Positions 7,351-26,227 of a DNA stretch of 56,347 nt are shown here, in pieces (the stretch's first letter is position 1; each line of letters opens with the position of its first letter). A model generated the notes under the pieces. It had not been told where the DNA came from, searched no databases, and saw only the letters and a program-made list of their open reading frames with translations. Source of the DNA: Zoogloea sp. (GTDB lineage Bacteria; Pseudomonadota; Gammaproteobacteria; Burkholderiales; Rhodocyclaceae); the NCBI RefSeq assembly GCF_023150065.1, contig NZ_JAKLLN010000027.1:1-56347 (forward strand). Reading direction: 5' to 3'. The translations under genes and the position numbers were made by a program.

Positions 7351-9117
7351 TTACTTGCCGTTGTGCAGCTTGAACACCCACACGGAACCGCCCTGCTCCA
7401 GGAAGTTCACGCGACGGGCCACGTCGCCGCCCCACAGGGGAACAGCGCCGCCCCAGCCGGACACCACGGCCACGTACTGCTCGCCGCCTTCCATCCAGGT
7501 AACCGGGGGAGCCACCACGCCGGAGCCGGTCTGGAAGGACCAGACTTCCTTGCCGGTCTTGGCATCCAGCGCCTTCAGGTAGCCTTCGGGGGTACCGTAG
7601 AAGGTCAGGTTGCCGCCGGTGGTCAGGACACCGCCCCACAGGGGAGCGAAGTTCTTGTTTTCCCACACGATCTTGCCGGTGGTCGGATCCACGGCGCGCA
7701 GGGAGCCGATGTAGTCGTCGTGCAGGGCCTTGATGGTGAAGCCGGCGCCCAGGTAAGCCGCACCGCGCTTGTAGGAGACGGGCTCGTTCCAGATGTCCAT
7801 GCCCCACTCGTTGGCCGGCACGTAGAACAGGCCGGTCTGCGGGTTGTAGGCGATCTGCTGCTGGTTCTTGCCGCCCAGGAAGGACGGAGCGGCGAAGACG
7901 TTCTTGCCCTTCTTGCCATCCGCGCTGCCGGACGGGTCGCCAGGACGGTTCTCATCCACGTAGATGGGACGGCCGGTGTTCATGTCGAAGCCCTTGGCCC
8001 AGGTGATGTCCTTGACGAAGGGGAAGATGTTCAGCGGCTTGCCGTTGGTACGGTCGAGCACGAAGAAGAAGCCGTTACGGTCAGCCTTGCCGCCCGCCTT
8101 GATGACCTTGCCGGTCTTCGGATCCTTGTAGTCGAAGGACACGAATTCGTTCACACCGTCAAAGTCCCAGCCGTCGTGGGGGGTGGTCTGGTAGTGCCAG
8201 ACAATCTTGCCGGTATCCGGGTCGATGGCCACGGTGGCGGAGGAGAACAGGTTGTCGCCGGGGCGCAGGTGGCTGTTCCACGGAGCCGGGTTGCCGGTGC
8301 CCGCGAAGACCAGGTTGGTCTCGGGGTCGTAGGTGGCGCCGTTCCAGGTGGCCGCACCGCCGGTCTTCCACAGGTCGCCGGTCCAGGTGGCGTTGAGGGT
8401 ACCGGAGATGCCGTTCTCGACCTTCTCGCCGTTCACCCACTTGTAGCCCATGTGGCCTTCAACGGTGGGACGCATCCACACCATCTTGCCGGTCTTGGCA
8501 TCGCGGGCTTCCATACGGCCCTGCACGCCGAATTCGCCACCGGACACACCGGTGATGACCAGGCCCTTGACGATCAGCGGTGCCGCAGTGGCGGAGTAGC
8601 CGGCGGCGTAGTCGTCGATCTTCTCCTTCCACACGACCTTGCCGGTGTCCTTGTTCAGGGCCACCAGCTGGGCGTCGAGGGTGGCGAAGATCACCACGTC
8701 GCCATACAGGGCAGCGCCACGGTTGATCACGTCACAGCAGGGCATGATGCCTTCGGGCAGGCGGTGCTCGTACTTCCACAGCTTCTTGCCGGTCTTGGCA
8801 TCCAGGGCAAAGATGCGGCTGTAGGAAGCGGTCACGAACATCTTGCCGTCGTGGATCAGCGGCTGGGATTCCTGGCCGCGCTGCTTCTCGCCACCAAAGG
8901 AGAAGGACCACACCGGGACCAGGTTCTTGACGGTCTTGACGTTGACCTTGTCCAGGGGGCTGAAGCGCTGACCCTGCTGGCCCAGGCCGAAGTGGGTGAC
9001 ATCGCCAGTGGTCTTGGCGTCGTTGGCAATGTCGGCGTCCGTGACTTCCTTGGCGTGGACCGAACCGGCCACCATCAGGGCGGCCGCGATCAGGCTCAAC
9101 GCAAACGGCTTTTTCAT
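7351..9117 (-). CDS. PQQ-dependent methanol/ethanol-type dehydrogenase, lanthanide-type active site
   Basis: A 588-residue periplasmic quinoprotein. The start at 9117 has AAGGAG seven bases upstream, and [18 protein letters not shown] is a signal peptide ending near VHA. The eight-bladed propeller is marked by repeated DAKTGKxxW motifs. Vicinal Cys127-Cys128 (MPCCD) form the disulfide ring over PQQ. Metal ligands fit Glu195 (GGEFG), Asn276 (GTGNPAPW) and catalytic Asp318 in GWDFDG. Asp320, two residues on, is the extra ligand that marks lanthanide-dependent XoxF/PedH enzymes, where calcium enzymes have Ala, Ser or Thr. The gene faces away from a quinoprotein relay operon and has its own sigma-54 promoter. 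Exact alcohol and exact subfamily (ExaA, PedH or XoxF) are not settled. Confidence 0.9.
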
Positions 9118-9223
9118 TGTTTTGCTCCTTTGGATCATTGAATGTCTCCTTCGAGAAGGTGCTTAAGCGCTACCTGGGGCGGCCACCTCCCGGCCCAACC
9201 AGGTCGTGCAGCGCTTTCCCTGC

Positions 9224-9238
9224 GCAAGAGCTGTGCCA
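9224..9238 (-). promoter_or_regulatory. Sigma-54 promoter of the PQQ dehydrogenase gene
   Basis: Read on the minus strand: TGGCACAGCTCTTGC, an exact match to the -24/-12 consensus TGGCAC-N5-TTGC. It lies about 107 bases upstream of the start codon at 9117, giving a leader of roughly 95 bases. The same 15 bases occur in the opposite direction at 9558. Confidence 0.85.
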
Positions 9239-9423
9239 AAGGCTTGGCGCCGGGCCGGAAAATAGATCGACCGGGAAAAATTCCCGATAGAAAACGGGAA
9301 GTTGGCTCTGGTCGAAAACACGTTCGAATGGGAAAAATAAAGCCAGCCTGGGCCATTCCGCCCACTTGATGCTTCATTCCACACCAACTGCTCCAAGCTG
9401 GAGCACCCCGAAGCAGGACAGGC

Positions 9424-9453
9424 GCGACAGATGTACCACCTGCGACAGATGTC
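9424..9453. promoter_or_regulatory. Direct repeats, candidate activator-binding sites
   Basis: GCGACAGATGT occurs at 9424-9434 and again at 9442-9452, 18 bases apart. The second copy extends to GACAGATGTC, which has GACA and TGTC as inverted halves. Position, about 105-135 bases upstream of the plus-strand sigma-54 promoter and about 190-220 bases from the minus-strand one, fits an enhancer for a sigma-54 activator shared by both promoters. The protein that binds is not identified. Confidence 0.45.
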
Positions 9454-9557
9454 CGCAGCGCAGAACTCGCCGGTCCCTGGCACCACGGTCCACGCAAACC
9501 CTTGTCCCCCGCGCTGAAACCCGCTTCCGGCTGCCAGGCCGTCGACTTCCCGGGCAG

Positions 9558-9573
9558 TGGCACAGCTCTTGCA
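9558..9573 (+). promoter_or_regulatory. Sigma-54 promoter of the quinoprotein relay operon
   Basis: TGGCACAGCTCTTGCA matches TGGCAC-N5-TTGCA exactly. It is 59 bases upstream of the ATG at 9632. Its 15-base core is identical to that of the divergent promoter, including the non-conserved spacer. Confidence 0.85.
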
Positions 9574-9631
9574 GCGCCTTTCACAGCAAACAGAGCGCGC
9601 CGCCACCGGCAGGCCGCCGTCAGGAGACAGA

Positions 9632-10420
9632 ATGAAGAAGCAAGCCCTCGCGGCCCTCACGGCCCTGTGGATGGCCTGTGCCTGCAGCGCAGGTCACGCC
9701 GCCGCCCCTGCCGAGCGCCGTACCGACCCCCTCGATTCGCCCCGCTGGGCCGACATGCGCAAGGAGATGTTTCCGGCGACGGCCCAGGTCATCTTTGACG
9801 ATCGGGTCAAGGTCACCGCCCCCCTCACCGCCGAGAACGCCATGAACGTGCCGGTGAGCGTGGACGCCAGCGCCCTGAACGGCGTGCGCGAGGTGCTCGT
9901 CTTCGCCGACTTCAACCCCATCGTGCGCATCGTCCGCTTCGAACCCAGCGGCGCCCACGCGGCCCTGGGCTTCCGCATCAAGCTGCAGCAGTCCACCCCG
10001 GTTCGCGCCGCGGTGCGCACCGCCGACGGCATCTGGCATGTGGGCGGCACCTGGGTCAATACCGCCGGCGGCGGCTGCACCCTGCCCTCCACGGGCAGCG
10101 GCTCGCCCGAATGGCAGAAACGCCTGGGGGAAGTGAGCAGTCGCGTGTGGGCCCGCAAGGAAGGTGGCGAGCGCATCCGTCTGCGCATCATCCACCCCAT
10201 CGACACCGGCCTCGCCGCCGGCATTCCGGCCTTCTTCCTGCAGGACCTGGACCTCAGCGACGACCAGGGCAAGGCCCTGATGCACATCGAGGGCTTCGAG
10301 CCCATCGCCGAGAACCCGGTGTTCACCGTCGACATCCCCGCCACCCGGGCCGCCGCCGCGTACCGGGTCAGCGGCCGCGACAACAACGGCAACGCCATTT
10401 CGGCTGCGATCGAAAAATGA
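9632..10420 (+). CDS. Quinoprotein dehydrogenase-associated SoxYZ-like carrier
   Basis: A 262-residue exported protein. CAGGAG precedes the ATG at 9632, and MKKQALAALTALWMACACSAGHAAA is a signal peptide. The N-terminal half resembles SoxY, ending with Cys149 in NTAGGGCTLPS, the position of the carrier cysteine. The C-terminal half (IRLRIIHPIDTG, then FFLQDLDLSDDQGKAL) resembles SoxZ. This SoxY-SoxZ fusion is a known companion of PQQ dehydrogenases. In sulfur oxidation SoxYZ carries substrates as cysteine adducts, and what this version carries is unknown. It is the first gene of an operon driven by a sigma-54 promoter, with its stop overlapping the next start by four bases. Confidence 0.88.
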   Translation: MKKQALAALTALWMACACSAGHAAAPAERRTDPLDSPRWADMRKEMFPATAQVIFDDRVKVTAPLTAENAMNVPVSVDASALNGVREVLVFADFNPIVRIVRFEPSGAHAALGFRIKLQQSTPVRAAVRTADGIWHVGGTWVNTAGGGCTLPSTGSGSPEWQKRLGEVSSRVWARKEGGERIRLRIIHPIDTGLAAGIPAFFLQDLDLSDDQGKALMHIEGFEPIAENPVFTVDIPATRAAAAYRVSGRDNNGNAISAAIEK

Positions 10421-11373
10421 CCCCCCTCTCCCGCACCGCACGCAGCCTCATTGCCGTCTTCGCCCTCGGCTGGACGGTGCTCCTCGCCGCCGCCGACCGG
10501 GACTACGGCCTCACCCCCGTGCGCATTGCCGACGACACCTGGGTGCTGGTCGGGCGCAGCGAGGATTTCAGCTTTGCCAACGGCGGCAACATCGTCAATA
10601 CCGCCTTCATCGTCACCCAGGCCGGCGTGGTGGTGATCGACAGCGGCCCGTCGCGGGCCTACGGCGAGCAGCTCAAGCGCGCCATCGCCCGCATCACCGA
10701 CAAGCCGGTGAGCCTGGTGCTCAACACCCACCACCATCCGGACCACTTCCTCGGCAACCAGGCCTTCGCCCCGGCCAGCCTGGCCGCGCTGCCCGCCACC
10801 ATCAAGGGCATCCACAGCGAAGGCGGCAGCCTCAACGAAAACATGTACCGCCTGGCCGGTGACTGGATGGCCGGCACCGAACCCGTCGCCCCGGCCCGCC
10901 CGCTCACCGCCGGCCCCCTGGAGATGGGCGGGCACCGCTTAGAACTGATCGCCCTCGCCGGCCACACCGAGGCCGACCTGGTCATTCTCGACCGCAGCAC
11001 CGGCGTGCTCTTTGCGGGCGACCTGGTGTTCAACGGTCGCACCCCCACCACGCCCCATGCCGATCTGCCCCGCTGGCAGGCCGCCCTCGATCAGCTCGAG
11101 AAGACCTCCTTCACCGCCCTCGTGCCCGGCCACGGCCCGGTGGCCGGCGACACCGGGCCGATCCGCCAGACCCGCACCTGGCTGGCCTGGCTGGACCGCC
11201 AGCTGCGCCAGGCGGCCGACGACGGCCTCGACATGACTGAAGTCCTGACCCTGCCGCTGCCGGCGGAATTCCGCGGCCTGGCCGTGGTCGACGCAGAGTA
11301 CCGCCGCTCCGTGGGCCAGCTCTATCCGGCCTATGAGCAACGTGCCCTTTCCGGCGAACGCCGCAAGCCATGA
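10417..11373 (+). CDS. Quinoprotein relay system zinc metallohydrolase (MBL fold)
   Basis: A 318-residue metallo-beta-lactamase-fold protein with an N-terminal hydrophobic export signal. The zinc motif HxHxDH is present as HHHPDH at residues 105-110. Further ligands are seen in ALAGHTEADLVI, in LFAGDLVFNG and in LVPGHGPV. It belongs to the SoxH-related hydrolases that accompany PQQ dehydrogenases and the SoxYZ-like carrier, and may release a carrier-bound product. Start and stop both sit in four-base ATGA overlaps with neighbours, so translation is coupled. The reaction has not been shown for this family as far as I know. Confidence 0.88.
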   Translation: MTPLSRTARSLIAVFALGWTVLLAAADRDYGLTPVRIADDTWVLVGRSEDFSFANGGNIVNTAFIVTQAGVVVIDSGPSRAYGEQLKRAIARITDKPVSLVLNTHHHPDHFLGNQAFAPASLAALPATIKGIHSEGGSLNENMYRLAGDWMAGTEPVAPARPLTAGPLEMGGHRLELIALAGHTEADLVILDRSTGVLFAGDLVFNGRTPTTPHADLPRWQAALDQLEKTSFTALVPGHGPVAGDTGPIRQTRTWLAWLDRQLRQAADDGLDMTEVLTLPLPAEFRGLAVVDAEYRRSVGQLYPAYEQRALSGERRKP

Positions 11374-12173
11374 GCCCCGCCCTGCCGCTGCCCGATACCG
11401 CCTGGCCCCGCCCCGCGGCCCTGCCACGCCCGTTGCAGCTGGCCATCGGGCTGTCCATCGGTGTCCATGCCATGGCCTTGCTGGTGCAAGGCAAGGGCCT
11501 GCCGCCAGCCCCCGCCACGCCGCCCACCCTCGAAATCGTGCTCCGCACGCCCGCAGCGCTGCCCGCGCCAGTAAGCCCGCCGCCCGTCGCCGAAGTGCGG
11601 ACACCCCCACCGCCGCCCCGCGTTGAAGCCCCGGCCCGCGCCCCCCAGGTCGCACCGCGCCCGGCCCCCGTGCTGACCCGCCCGCTGGCCCAGGCCCCCA
11701 ACAACACACCCGCCCTGCGCACCGAGCCCACTCCGGCCCCCACCCCCCTCGCACCCGCCGCCCCTGCCGTCGACACCCCGCCGCCCCCGGCCATCGCCGT
11801 AGCGGCCCCGCGGCCAACCCATGTCGAGCCCGCTGCAGTTGCCGCACCCGCCGCCGACGAGGCCCTCGACCCTGCCCTGCTCGAACGCTACGGGCGCAGC
11901 CTCTCCAGCCTCTTCGCCCGCCAGCAGAACTACCCCCGGCTGGCCGCCATGCGCGGCTGGGAGGGCGAGGTGCAGGTGCGTGTCACCATCGCCCGCAAGG
12001 GCAACATCGTGGCCGCCCAGGTGGTTCGCTCCAGCGGCTTTGAAATCCTCGACCAGAGCGCCATCCAGCTGGTCTCCGGCGCCGGCCAGCTGCCCCGCCC
12101 GCCCGAAGCCCTGCAGAACCGCGAGCTCCAGATCGTCGTCCCCGTACTTTTCAAACTGGAGAAACCGGCATGA
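11370..12173 (+). CDS. TonB-family energy-transducer-like protein
   Basis: A 267-residue protein with the TonB layout. A single N-terminal membrane segment (LQLAIGLSIGVHAMALLVQ) is followed by a Pro/Ala-rich linker of about 120 residues and a C-terminal domain with YPRLAAMRGWEGEVQVRVTI and SSGFEILDQSAI. It would couple the proton gradient to an outer-membrane receptor. Encoded in the middle of the quinoprotein operon with ATGA overlaps on both sides, it suggests that uptake across the outer membrane, perhaps of a lanthanide chelate or PQQ, belongs to the system. No TonB-dependent receptor or ExbBD is encoded here. Confidence 0.85.
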   Translation: MSPALPLPDTAWPRPAALPRPLQLAIGLSIGVHAMALLVQGKGLPPAPATPPTLEIVLRTPAALPAPVSPPPVAEVRTPPPPPRVEAPARAPQVAPRPAPVLTRPLAQAPNNTPALRTEPTPAPTPLAPAAPAVDTPPPPAIAVAAPRPTHVEPAAVAAPAADEALDPALLERYGRSLSSLFARQQNYPRLAAMRGWEGEVQVRVTIARKGNIVAAQVVRSSGFEILDQSAIQLVSGAGQLPRPPEALQNRELQIVVPVLFKLEKPA

Positions 12174-13618
12174 ACGCAGCTGCCTGCTCCCTCCCCTCCG
12201 GCCCCGACATCAAGCTCAGCCCCAGCCAGCCCGGCAACGGCCAGTCCCTGCGGCTGCGGGTGAGCCTGGTGCTGACGGCCCTGGCAGCCGCCTTCGTGAT
12301 CGCCAGCGCCGCCCTGTGGGTGAGCGATGCCCGCACTGCCATCACCGAAGAGATCACCGCCGCCCACCGGGTGGCCGCCCAGTGGCTGGCCGTATCCGCC
12401 CAGGGCACCGCCTCCGGCGATCCGGCCTGGACGGAGACCCGGCTCCTCGCCCACCTCAACGCCGTCGGCCGCATCCGCGCCCACCAGCTCGAGGCCCGCG
12501 ACGAATCGGGCCGCCTGCTGTACACCTCGCCGCCCTCCGCCTACAAGCCCGGCCGGGACGCACCCGCCTGGTTCACCCACTGGATGGAGCCCGGCATTCC
12601 GGCCATGACCCTGCACGCCGGCAGCCTCACCCTGCACCTGCAGCCCGACCCCTCGCGGGCCCTGATTGACCTGTGGGACGACCTCAGCGCCGCCGCCGCC
12701 CGCGCCCTGCTGGCCCTGGCCGGCCTGTTCATCGGTAGCTGGTTCGCCATCCACCACGCCCTCAAGCCCCTTGAAACCGTGATGGCCGCCCTCGACCGCA
12801 CCGGCCAGGGCAACTTCGACACCCGCCTGCCCACCGACGGCCCGGCCGAACTCGCCCGCCTCGGCCAGGCCTTCAACGGCATGGCCCGGCGCCTCAACGA
12901 AGCCGTGGTCGAAAACGTCCGCCTGACCCACGAGCAGGCCGTGGCCCGGGCCATCACCGAGCGCCTCGAGGCCGACCGCCTGGCCATCGCCCGGGATCTC
13001 CACGACGAACTCGGCCAGAGCATCACCGCCGTTGCCGCGCTGGCCGGCGCCATCGTCCAGCGCAGCACCGACACTCCGCAGATCCACCAGAGCGCCGAAG
13101 TGATTCGCGACGTGGCCTCGCGCATGCAGGGCGACGTGCGCGCCCTGCTCACCCGCCTGCGCCCCCCCGGCAGCGCCCAACGCGAGACCCTCGACGACGC
13201 GGTGCGCAGCTACCTCGCCAGCTGGAGCCGCCACCATGCCGACATCGAGCTGTCCACCGAGCTCTTCGCCGGCCCCCAGCCCCTGCCCGACGACATCACC
13301 CTGGCCACCCTGCGCATCGTCCAGGAGTCGTGCACCAACATCGTCCGTCACGCCCTGGCCAGCCGGGCCCGGGTGCGCCTGCTGCGCGAGGGCGACACCC
13401 TGACCATCGAGATCAGCGACAACGGCCGCGGCATCCTGCCCGCGCCGGGCCAGGCCGGCTTCGGCCTCGCCGGCATGCGCGAACGGGTCATCGGCCTGGC
13501 CGGCAGCCTGGAGATCAGCAGCCCGCCGGGCGGCGGCACGCGCATCCGCGCCCGCCTGCCCCTCACCCTGCCGGAGCCCCTTGCCCCGGCCGCCCTCCCG
13601 GAAGGCCTCCCCTCATGA
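12170..13618 (+). CDS. NarX-type sensor histidine kinase of the quinoprotein operon
   Basis: A 482-residue inner-membrane kinase. Transmembrane segments lie at about residues 29-50 and 178-195, enclosing a periplasmic sensor of some 125 residues. A HAMP-like linker follows (LKPLETVMAALDRT). The HisKA_3 box is ARDLHDELGQS with phospho-acceptor His278. The ATPase domain shows NIVRHALASRA, then DNGRGI and GFGLAGMRER. It overlaps both neighbouring genes by four bases, and the next one encodes its likely partner regulator. By position it should sense an alcohol, redox or metal cue for the pathway. The ligand is unknown. Confidence 0.88.
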   Translation: MNAAACSLPSGPDIKLSPSQPGNGQSLRLRVSLVLTALAAAFVIASAALWVSDARTAITEEITAAHRVAAQWLAVSAQGTASGDPAWTETRLLAHLNAVGRIRAHQLEARDESGRLLYTSPPSAYKPGRDAPAWFTHWMEPGIPAMTLHAGSLTLHLQPDPSRALIDLWDDLSAAAARALLALAGLFIGSWFAIHHALKPLETVMAALDRTGQGNFDTRLPTDGPAELARLGQAFNGMARRLNEAVVENVRLTHEQAVARAITERLEADRLAIARDLHDELGQSITAVAALAGAIVQRSTDTPQIHQSAEVIRDVASRMQGDVRALLTRLRPPGSAQRETLDDAVRSYLASWSRHHADIELSTELFAGPQPLPDDITLATLRIVQESCTNIVRHALASRARVRLLREGDTLTIEISDNGRGILPAPGQAGFGLAGMRERVIGLAGSLEISSPPGGGTRIRARLPLTLPEPLAPAALPEGLPS

Positions 13619-14262
13619 GCGCAGCCGCCCCCCTGTCCGCCCTTTCCCTGGTCCTGGCCGACGACCACGCCATCGTGCGCATGGGGTTCCGCCTGCTCCT
13701 CGAGGGCGTCGGCGCCCGGGTGCTGGCCGAAGCCGACAGCGGCGAGGCCGCCCAGCAGCGGATGCAGGAACTCGACCCGGATGTGCTGGTGATGGATCTC
13801 TCCATGCCCGGCTGCGGCGGCCTCGCCGCGCTGGAGCGCATCCTCGCCCGCAAGCCCGGCCAGAAGGTACTGATCGCCTCGGCCCACGCCGACGCCATCA
13901 CCGCCGAACGGGCCCTCAAGGCGGGTGCCGCCGGCTACCTGTGCAAGCGCAGCCCCCCCGACGAGTTGCTCAAGGCGGTGGGGCTGGTGGCCGCGGGCCA
14001 GCGCTACATCGACCCGGAGATCGCCGCCGCCCTGCGCCGCGCCGACCGCCCGGAGCACCCCGCCGAAGCCCTGACCGACAAGGAATTCAGCGTCTTCCTG
14101 CAGCTGGCCCAGGGCCGCTCGGTGGCCGAAGTGGCCGAGACCTTCCACCTCAGCCCCAACACCGTCGGCACCCACCTTTATCACATCAAGCAGAAGCTTG
14201 GCGTACAGAACATGGCCGAACTGGCCATGGCGGCCGTGCGTTCCGGCCTGATCGAAGTCTAG
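13615..14262 (+). CDS. LuxR/NarL-family response regulator of the quinoprotein operon
   Basis: A 215-residue regulator. The receiver domain has acidic DD at 16-17, phospho-acceptor Asp61 (VLVMDLSMPG), and Lys in YLCKRSPPDELL. The C-terminal helix-turn-helix is AEVAETFHLSPNTVGTHLYHIKQKLG. Translation is coupled to the kinase gene by an ATGA overlap. It has no AAA+ domain, so it cannot itself activate the two sigma-54 promoters of this island. It must control other promoters or modulate these indirectly. Confidence 0.9.
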   Translation: MSAAAPLSALSLVLADDHAIVRMGFRLLLEGVGARVLAEADSGEAAQQRMQELDPDVLVMDLSMPGCGGLAALERILARKPGQKVLIASAHADAITAERALKAGAAGYLCKRSPPDELLKAVGLVAAGQRYIDPEIAAALRRADRPEHPAEALTDKEFSVFLQLAQGRSVAEVAETFHLSPNTVGTHLYHIKQKLGVQNMAELAMAAVRSGLIEV

Positions 14263-14830: not shown

Positions 14831-16921
14831 ATGCCTGCGCGCCGCCTTCTCCGCTGCGTCGCCGCCGGCATGGGCCTGCTCCTCGCCGGCCCGGCGGCCT
14901 GGGCCGGCGATCTGGGCCAGGCCGACATCGCCCGACGCTTCCAGCCGCCCCTGCATGTGGGCGACAAGCTGCGCGACATCCCCGCCTGGCCCATCACCAG
15001 CGAACTCGAACCCGAAGCCGGCCCGGTCGCCTGGGCCTTTGAATCCATCGACCTCGCCCCCATCCCGGGCTTCGAGGGCACGCCCATGAACCTGCTGGTC
15101 AGCATCGACCGCAAGGGCAACTTCATGGACGTGGAACTGCTGCGCCAGCATGAGCCGGTGTTCCTGTCCGGCCTGGGCGAAGGCCCCCTGCGCGACTTCC
15201 TGGCCCAGTACGCCAACAAGAGCCTGAAGCAGGAGATCACCGTCTCCAGCCTCTACGGCAACACCCGGGCCGGCGCCGGGGGCAACCGGGTGGTGCTGGA
15301 CGGGGTGAGCAAGGCCACCGCCTCGGTGCGCATCGTCAATCAGACCGTCCTCACCTCGGCCCTCGCCGTGGCCCGGGCCCGCCTGGGCTTTGCCGCACCG
15401 GCCGAAAAAGGCCCGCTGGCACAGGTCCGGGAGGACGTCTATGAGGCCCGCAGCTTTGATGCGCTGCTCAAGTCCGGCGCCATCGGCCGCCTGCACCTGA
15501 GCCATGCCGACGTGGAACAGCGCTTCGCCGGCAGCGACGGCGCCGGGGTCGATGCCGAGGCCCTGGCCCGCCCCGGCGAAACCTTCATCGACCTGTACGT
15601 GGCCTACCTCAACGCCCCCACCATCGGCCGGGCCATTCTGGGCGACGCCGGCCACGCCGACCTGATGCGTCGGCTGGAGCCCGGCCAGCACGCCTGGTGG
15701 GTGGCCAGCGCCGGGCGCGACGCCTACATCGACGAGAGCTTCACCCGCGGCACCGTACCCGCCCGCCTCGCCTTCAGCCAAGCCGGTGCGCCCGTCGAGC
15801 TGCGCGACCTGGACCTGTCGCCCCGCCCGCCCGTCGGGGCCCCGCCCCTCAACGCCGCGCTGGTGCTGCGGGTGCCCCCCATGTCCGGCATCGACCCGGC
15901 CAGCCCGGTGCGCTTCGAGCTGACCCTGACCCGGGCCAAGGGCTCCATGCTGCCGGTGATCACCCAGCGCAGCGCCCAGCTCGACTATCAGGCACCGGAG
16001 GCCCTGTTCTACCGCCCGCCGGCGCCCCTGCCCGACTGGCTGATCGCCTGGAAGGATCGCGGCGTGGAACTGGGCATCATCGCCGCCTCGCTGGCCCTGC
16101 TGTCGTTGGTGCTCGCCCGGCCCCGCTGGATCTCCGTGTCGGCACGCCGCCTGAAGGCCTTCCGCCTCGCCTTCCTGGCCTTTACCCTCGGCTACATCGG
16201 CTGGTACGCCCAGGGGCAGCTGTCCATCGTCCAGATCACCGGGGCCATCAAATCCCTCGTCGCCGGCGCCGGGCTTAAGAGCTTTCTCTACGATCCGGTG
16301 AGCCTGCTGCTGATCGCCTTCACTCTGGTCAGCTTCGTGGTGTGGGGCCGCGGCACCTTTTGCGGCTGGCTGTGCCCCTTCGGCGCGCTGCAGGAATTTG
16401 CCGCCCTGCTCGCCCGTGCCCTGCGCCTGCCCGAACTGAGGCTGCCGGCCCGGCTGGCCGGCGTGCTCGACCGGGGCCGCTTCGTGATCCTGGCCGTCCT
16501 CGCTGCCCTGGCCGCGTTCGCCCCCCAATGGGCCGAAAAGGGCGTGGAGGTGGAACCCTTCAAGACCGCCATCACCGTGGGCTTCGACCGCAGCGCACCC
16601 TTCGTGGCCTATGCGCTGATCCTGCTGGTGCTGGGCGGCCTGTACTACAAGTTCTTCTGCCGCTACCTGTGCCCCCTGGGCGCCGCCATGGCCCTGGGCG
16701 GCAAGCTGCGCCTGCTCGACTGGCTACCCCGCCGCAAGGAATGCGGCCAGCCCTGCCAGACCTGCCGCCACCGCTGCGCCTACGACGCCATCGAGAAGAA
16801 CGGCGCCATCCGCTACGAGCGCTGCTTCCAGTGCCTCGACTGCGTCGGCATCTACCACGACCCCGGCCGCTGCGCGCCCATCATGCTGCTGCACAAGAAG
16901 GACAAGGCCCGGGCGGGCTGA
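14831..16921 (+). CDS. NosR/NirI-like FMN and 4Fe-4S membrane electron-transfer protein
   Basis: A 696-residue protein. After a signal peptide (residues 1-25) comes a periplasmic FMN-binding domain with GLGEGPLRDFLAQY and VSKATASVRI, where Thr163 is the candidate covalent FMN site. About five membrane segments follow (near 413-430, 445-465, 490-507, 550-565, 590-607). Two CxxxCP motifs (C511-C515-P and C610-C614-P) are typical of NosR and NapH. The C-terminus has two cysteine clusters (638, 642, 645, 649 and 665, 668, 671, 681) for two 4Fe-4S centres. NosR feeds electrons to nitrous oxide reductase, but no nos gene is near. Here it probably links the quinone pool and the periplasmic quinoprotein system. 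Confidence 0.87.
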   Translation: MPARRLLRCVAAGMGLLLAGPAAWAGDLGQADIARRFQPPLHVGDKLRDIPAWPITSELEPEAGPVAWAFESIDLAPIPGFEGTPMNLLVSIDRKGNFMDVELLRQHEPVFLSGLGEGPLRDFLAQYANKSLKQEITVSSLYGNTRAGAGGNRVVLDGVSKATASVRIVNQTVLTSALAVARARLGFAAPAEKGPLAQVREDVYEARSFDALLKSGAIGRLHLSHADVEQRFAGSDGAGVDAEALARPGETFIDLYVAYLNAPTIGRAILGDAGHADLMRRLEPGQHAWWVASAGRDAYIDESFTRGTVPARLAFSQAGAPVELRDLDLSPRPPVGAPPLNAALVLRVPPMSGIDPASPVRFELTLTRAKGSMLPVITQRSAQLDYQAPEALFYRPPAPLPDWLIAWKDRGVELGIIAASLALLSLVLARPRWISVSARRLKAFRLAFLAFTLGYIGWYAQGQLSIVQITGAIKSLVAGAGLKSFLYDPVSLLLIAFTLVSFVVWGRGTFCGWLCPFGALQEFAALLARALRLPELRLPARLAGVLDRGRFVILAVLAALAAFAPQWAEKGVEVEPFKTAITVGFDRSAPFVAYALILLVLGGLYYKFFCRYLCPLGAAMALGGKLRLLDWLPRRKECGQPCQTCRHRCAYDAIEKNGAIRYERCFQCLDCVGIYHDPGRCAPIMLLHKKDKARAG

Positions 16922-24526: not shown

Positions 24527-26227
<1,701 letters not shown>

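Follow-up and report, generated by a model that had tools for sequence, protein, structure and literature searches.

A divergent sigma-54 control region with a candidate shared enhancer at a quinoprotein dehydrogenase locus of Zoogloea

The described systems closest to the control region analysed here are exaA of Azospirillum brasilense, the ped cluster of Pseudomonas putida and the BmoR-PBMO system of Thauera butanivorans. The region occupies positions 9118-9631 of a 56,347-nucleotide stretch of Zoogloea sp. DNA (contig NZ_JAKLLN010000027.1 of assembly GCF_023150065.1; the whole stretch is called the window) and separates a gene for a pyrroloquinoline quinone (PQQ) dehydrogenase from an oppositely directed gene for a SoxYZ-like carrier. 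According to the available excerpts of the sources, exaA of A. brasilense Sp7 is controlled by sigma-54 and a LuxR-type regulator (Singh et al. 2017, J Bacteriol 199:e00035-17, as cited in PMC6115532). In P. putida, the same kind of excerpts place SoxYZ- and SoxH-like genes beside pedH and describe PedS2/PedR2 as regulating pedE and pedH inversely with lanthanides (PMC6115532, PMC12997753). The role of a specific sigma factor at pedE was called unknown in 2018 in the excerpted part of PMC6115532, and the text of that paper has no mention of a binding site, consensus, inverted repeat, palindrome or promoter region. BmoR is presented, again in excerpts, as an alcohol-responsive sigma-54 activator with an inverted repeat, the PBMO enhancer being positioned 193 bp from the -24/-12 boxes (PMC8899819, PMC6366067); the BmoR promoter is still active without its putative site (PMC8899819). 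Among the matches listed, none, as far as titles and the beginnings of abstracts go, deals with PQQ dehydrogenases under the control of sigma-54 in Zoogloea or in other Betaproteobacteria, but subscription papers lie mostly outside this set and the print record may differ. A survey of sigma-54 regulons (PMC12316311) has no mention of PQQ, quinoprotein, Zoogloea or Rhodocyclales.

Judged by its sequence, the Zoogloea region is real, functional-looking and conserved. It is probable that a single enhancer and one enhancer-binding protein (EBP1) drive both of its divergent promoters, and that a response regulator positioned at a second dyad tunes the choice of enzyme. The parts of such a system are known, and their combination is apparently new.

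Twin sigma-54 promoters and the central dyad

The elements of the region are the following.

9224-9238, minus strand: sigma-54 -24/-12 promoter TGGCAC-AGCTC-TTGC, on the PQQ dehydrogenase side
9558-9572, plus strand: sigma-54 promoter TGGCAC-AGCTC-TTGC, on the side of the SoxYZ-like operon
9389-9405, strandless: candidate shared enhancer (upstream activating sequence) TGCTCCA-AGC-TGGAGCA, midway between the two promoters
9370-9375, strandless: conserved half-element TGCTTC/GAAGCA, at a fixed spacing from the main dyad
9424-9434 and 9442-9452, strandless: 11-base direct repeats GCGACAGATGT, present but without conservation
9272-9286, strandless: dyad CGGGAA-N3-TTCCCG, 33 bases upstream of the dehydrogenase -24
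9295-9300, strandless: third half-site CGGGAA, beside the second dyad

The original prediction placed twin divergent sigma-54 promoters with one 15-base core in front of a quinoprotein island. The 15-mer TGGCACAGCTCTTGC is indeed found with 0 mismatches at 9224-9238 on the minus strand and at 9558-9572 on the plus strand, and these are its only 2 copies in the 5,245,242-base genome. The pattern TGGCACN5TTGC has 29 genome-wide matches compared to 4 for the reversed pattern, an excess of about sevenfold, and the genome contains 1 rpoN-type gene (Sigma54_DBD match at C33:48478-48942, 221 bits). For comparison with other genomes, the best 80 of 581 related dehydrogenase loci were taken, the nearest relatives being those of Zoogloea. 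L106 and L128, with 18 and 238 bases upstream, were left out; the remaining 78 make 79 with the window. In 65 of the 78 loci, the 330 bases preceding the aligned start contain a site TGG[CT]A[CT]-N5-TTGC. Twenty-two of the 78 have a SoxYZ-like gene in divergent orientation, and 19 of these 22 have sigma-54 sites in both directions. The twin arrangement is borne out by these counts, and predicted sigma-54 control of both directions is well supported. One record in the set, L130, is titled as a Klebsiella pneumoniae metagenome-assembled genome; the entries listed next to it give its locus a betaproteobacterial look, and the bin is probably mislabelled.

The identity of the spacer had been taken to suggest shared ancestry or a second constraint. 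The spacer AGCTC occurs only at these 2 of the 29 genomic sites, and the only other spacer shared by a pair is GGACG (2 identical pairs among 406 possible). In the 19 divergent loci with two sites, the spacers differ in 17 and are identical in 2, both from Zoogloea (0 of 12 outside this genus), which speaks against a general constraint. Both sites are also present in 14 of 16 further Zoogloea regions, chosen by a CGGGAA dyad before a lanthanide-type (Ln-type) gene, and 8 of the 14 have the spacer pair AGCTC/AGCTC, although some of their genomes overlap with the 22-locus set. A recent common origin or a genus-level preference may thus still explain the identity. What is conserved is thus the twin arrangement, whereas spacer identity, seen in 8 of 14 other Zoogloea regions and in none of 12 from other genera, is a trait of the genus and does not belong to the design.

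The common enhancer had been sought in the 11-base repeats. These exist, but they are paired in the window only, the pair being absent from the nine other regions of a 10-sequence alignment, and for this lack of conservation they were rejected as the enhancer. The element they adjoin, the 17-bp dyad TGCTCCAAGCTGGAGCA at 9389-9405, is part of a block in the middle of the region that is conserved in the alignment of the 10 intergenic regions (nine of them from Zoogloea) and was absent from the original prediction. Its distance to the -24 element is 150 bases on the dehydrogenase side and 152 bases on the SoxYZ side. When motifs were sought de novo in 62 regions lying upstream of the sigma-54 site (66 less four near-duplicate Zoogloea loci), the palindrome CTGTTCCA-N3-TGGARCAG emerged with a log-likelihood of 504, while five shuffled sets reached 81-92. 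The motif was recovered again from 57 regions without any Zoogloea sequence. With at most 2 mismatches, the dyad is found in 44 of the 79 loci versus 8 of 790 shuffles; the proportion is 42 of 66 where a sigma-54 site is present and 2 of 13 where it is absent (Fisher p 0.0018). Perfect TG..CA dyads of the 6-5-6 form are present in 12 of the 62 regions (shuffle mean 0.65); no other gap from 0 to 14 gave a comparable excess in these regions. Other half-sites (TGTCTC, TGCAAC) occupy the same 6-5-6 frame in some genera, as would be expected if the activators had changed their specificity.

At the genome level, 26 of the 27 exact dyads in 23 Zoogloea genomes, including this one, are inside PQQ loci, and the reversed pattern has 0 matches. 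With at most 1 mismatch, this genome has 7 dyad places versus 0 for the control, four of which are in PQQ loci: the one in the window and three on contig C55. One of these three, a one-mismatch dyad (L166:15218-15234), lies within the coding sequence of a histidine kinase, 3' of that gene's own sigma-54 site. The combined pattern GGAGCA-N13-GAAGCA is found with 0 mismatches in the window, L086-L093, L099 and L101. As a genome-wide enhancer pattern it is not specific (30 matches versus 23 for the control with one mismatch allowed), and it is a mere add-on to the main dyad.

The proposed mechanism is that of one enhancer for two promoters, a part of the model that is well supported as a prediction. 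A hexamer of EBP1, presumably alcohol-responsive, would bind the palindrome at 9389-9405 and loop to RNA polymerase at the -24/-12 promoters about 150 bases to either side. The PedH-type dehydrogenase would then be co-induced with a putative operon of SoxYZ-like, SoxH-like, TonB and two-component genes. Furthermore, a NarL/LuxR-type response regulator bound at 9272-9286, between the enhancer and the dehydrogenase promoter, would adjust the dehydrogenase side.

Candidate activators

Formation of an open complex by sigma-54 polymerase requires an AAA+ activator. The response regulator of the island contains Response_reg and GerE domains and, as had been stated, is of the NarL type without an AAA+ domain. 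The resulting expectation of an activator outside the window is supported by the genome, where the activator domain PF00158 is found above cut-off in 26 places, 22 of them strong. The best candidate is EBP1, encoded on contig C55 and divergent from pedF (cytochrome c-550). As a GAF-type enhancer-binding protein (BmoR/AcoR-like), it consists of GAF, Sigma54_activat (PF00158) and Fis-type HTH_8 domains, with the motifs GAFTGA and GESGAGKE visible.

The EBP1-pedF gap resembles the window region. In this genome it contains a one-mismatch dyad 144 bases before a perfect sigma-54 site. Among 24 Zoogloea loci, 4 are without pedF; all 20 that show both genes, this genome included, have the dyad with a sigma-54 site 141-168 bases on, the dyad having at most 2 mismatches in 17 of the 20 and three in 3. 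Seventeen of the 78 related loci encode activators, 18 in total, and among 21 activators of this genome EBP1 was the best match for 18 of 18 (L050, with no fitting frame, is absent from this comparison). EBP1 is thus likely to be the activator outside the window, and by analogy to BmoR it is presumably alcohol-responsive. Its matches in 242 plasmid records are all under 60% identity.

A sister activator, EBP2 (C55:70548-72362), has GAYTGA instead of GAFTGA. Beside it, an exact dyad (C55:69707-69723, equivalent to L166:9708-9724) is positioned between the 3' ends of the genes for a PQQ-associated beta-propeller protein and a cytochrome c. Elsewhere, on contig C33, a PQQ dehydrogenase and a Rieske-like gene (L168:2747-7553) have a sigma-54 site with the spacer AGCCC and a divergent activator gene; this locus is another sigma-54/PQQ pair.

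Flanking genes, the second dyad and a probable choice of enzyme

The flanking genes point outward from the control region, the PQQ dehydrogenase on the minus strand and the SoxYZ-like carrier on the plus strand.

7351-9117, minus strand: PQQ alcohol dehydrogenase, probably PedH type (TIGR03075, 782 bits)
9632-10420, plus strand: quinoprotein-dehydrogenase-associated SoxYZ-like carrier (TIGR04557, 211 bits; open frame from 9557)
10111-11373, plus strand: quinoprotein relay zinc metallohydrolase, SoxH-related (TIGR04558, 443 bits; frame from 10111)
11370-12173, plus strand: TonB-family protein (TIGR01352)
12170-13618, plus strand: HAMP histidine kinase, UhpB/NarX-like (HisKA_3, HATPase_c, HAMP; UhpB the best match, under cut-off)
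13615-14262, plus strand: NarL/LuxR-type response regulator without AAA+ domain (Response_reg, GerE)

The dehydrogenase likely starts at the ATG at 9117-9115, as suggested by a Shine-Dalgarno-like AAGGAG and a signal peptide; its open frame extends from 9138. The true start of the SoxH-related gene is probably downstream of 10111. The response regulator at 13615-14262 resembles GacA/UvrY, with a match under cut-off. The SoxYZ-like family has 49 matches over cut-off among 200 genomes of the order. The two-component genes are followed downstream by one for a NosR-like protein (14831-16921, 532 bits, the curated cut-off being 1000), and a urease alpha subunit gene is positioned at 24527-26227 on the minus strand.

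The window dehydrogenase and the one encoded on C55 are of different types. The best solved matches of the former are 6zcv/6zcw with 877/862 bits, versus 710 for 1flg; the C55 protein shows the reverse, with 954 bits for 1flg and 648 for 6zcv. The 6zcv/6zcw entries are labelled only as quinoprotein ethanol dehydrogenase, and we take them to be PedH of P. putida. GWDFDG of the window protein is aligned with AWDFSG of 1flg, so that Asp replaces the Ca-coordinating Ser, which is retained in the C55 protein. The same position is Ser in PedE and Asp in PedH, as given in an excerpt of PMC5487730. By its residues, the window enzyme is probably PedH-type and rare-earth-dependent, and the C55 enzyme is classed as ExaA-type (calcium-type, Ca-type).

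The dyad CGGGAA-N3-TTCCCG, which the original prediction did not list, is a probable site for a response regulator of the NarL/LuxR type. Its neighbouring third half-site is intact in 6 of 9 Zoogloea rows of the alignment (window, L086, L087, L089, L090 and L093) and altered in L088, L091 and L092. A 6-N5-6 reading of the dyad gave no result, the true gap being 3. This genome has 2 exact copies. One is at 9272-9286, and the other, on C55, separates the ExaA-type dehydrogenase from a pair of histidine kinase and response regulator. Of 23 Zoogloea genomes searched, this one included, 22 contain the dyad. The other genomes have 35 exact copies in all, 30 of which precede a dehydrogenase gene, 16 of the Ln-type and 14 of the Ca-type. 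At the Ln-type genes, in regions chosen by the dyad, its distance to the -24 is 33 bases in 14 of 16 and 32 in 2 of 16. At 9 of the 14 Ca-type genes, a divergent sigma-54 site facing the kinase side lies 14 or 20 bases from the dyad. The presence of this dyad means that a regulator of the island's own NarL type may still act at the promoter. As the same dyad stands before an ExaA-type dehydrogenase, the regulator probably selects which enzyme is made, comparable to PedR2 and lanthanides in Pseudomonas. Placement and analogy would then suggest a lanthanide switch, acting through a response-regulator site laid over sigma-54 control. A more specific version, in which an alcohol-sensing enhancer-binding protein at the central dyad and a PedR2-like regulator at CGGGAA-N3-TTCCCG act jointly on the Ln-type promoter, with that regulator also acting on the Ca-type gene and CGGGAA-N3-TTCCCG serving as operator in a rare-earth switch, is put forward as a tentative suggestion that may well prove wrong.

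Competing explanations and known systems

Several observations weigh against a shared enhancer bound by EBP1 and a regulator at the second dyad. The central dyad is weak (at least 3 mismatches) in 35 of the 79 loci, including Thauera, and the loci are mutually related, which inflates the motif statistics and overstates independence. Of the 27 exact dyads in the genus, 17 are flanked by convergent genes and lack any sigma-54 site up to 300 bases away; the model gives no account of them, and EBP2, which is beside such dyads, could be the protein that binds the enhancer. Other genera of the order contain 10 exact dyads (2 for the reversed-pattern control), and no tested Zoogloea protein has a counterpart of at least 45% identity within 1.5 kb of those 10, a search in which the SoxYZ-like query was invalid. 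The exact second dyad occurs 37 times in the 23 genomes compared to 23 for the reversed pattern, and in this genome, with one mismatch allowed, 10 times compared to 37. As its copy number barely exceeds the control, it is argued for from placement only, and 5 of the 35 copies mentioned above are not before a dehydrogenase (1 at the start of EBP2 and 4 elsewhere). The two candidate response regulators, from the window (13615-14262) and from C55 (C55:73517-74161), are 40% identical to each other, and either may be the putative binder of the CGGGAA dyad.

That EBP2 rather than EBP1 occupies the shared enhancer is unlikely. EBP2 adjoins exact dyads in 17 of 27 sites of the genus, and the dyad of the EBP1-pedF gap has 1-3 mismatches, but EBP1 scores above EBP2 for all 18 activators near dehydrogenases elsewhere. 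EBP2, moreover, carries GAYTGA where EBP1 has GAFTGA, and its neighbouring site is between convergent genes. An origin of the identical 15-mers as a local inverted copy, with one or neither a promoter, is very improbable. The identical spacer in the window and in 8 of 14 other Zoogloea regions would agree with such an event, but the identity of the two copies ends at the 15-mer, and 19 of the 22 divergent loci retain both promoters, 17 of these 19 having two spacers that differ.

A further possibility, quite improbable given the need of sigma-54 for an AAA+ activator, is that a NarL/LuxR-type regulator and sigma-54 operate alone, as was proposed for exaA of A. brasilense. It draws on the EraR/RpoN two-hybrid pair, which is a positive control in the excerpted part of PMC12826043, and on the position of the response-regulator-like dyad, which is separated from the -24 by 33 bases or, in 2 of 16 loci, by 32. 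However, a conserved enhancer and a matching activator are present, and CGGGAA-N3-TTCCCG is found in only 6 of 62 upstream regions, 5 of them from Zoogloea by reading of the alignment, whereas sigma-54 sites are widespread. The preferred explanation is thus that of EBP1 at the central dyad with the response regulator as a modulator.

With this arrangement, two regulators of periplasmic alcohol oxidation can be assigned explicit DNA targets. PQQ dehydrogenases of several betaproteobacterial genera have a candidate enhancer in the 17-bp dyad. The 15-bp dyad marks both Ln- and Ca-type enzymes in Zoogloea, and a rare-earth switch could be tested beyond Pseudomonas and methylotrophs. Systems with a LuxR-type protein and sigma-54, supposedly without an AAA+ partner, may also be reread in this light. 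In sewage treatment, Zoogloea is commonly met as a floc former, and the control of its alcohol use is therefore of practical interest.

Like exaA of A. brasilense, the locus has a PQQ alcohol dehydrogenase under predicted sigma-54 control together with a LuxR-type regulator. The motif at exaA is reportedly a 17-bp dyad, whereas Zoogloea has two separate dyads, a candidate AAA+ activator and a second, divergent promoter. The pair of Ca- and Ln-type enzymes, with SoxYZ- and SoxH-like genes near the latter, is shared with the ped cluster of P. putida, and a LuxR-type regulator acting on both would be as in Pseudomonas; unlike in that cluster, the genes are on two contigs of the Zoogloea assembly. 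Thauera belongs to the same order as Zoogloea. With BmoR-PBMO the locus has in common, by description, an alcohol-responsive sigma-54 activator (presumed for EBP1) and an inverted-repeat enhancer, but BmoR controls the promoter of an alkane monooxygenase.
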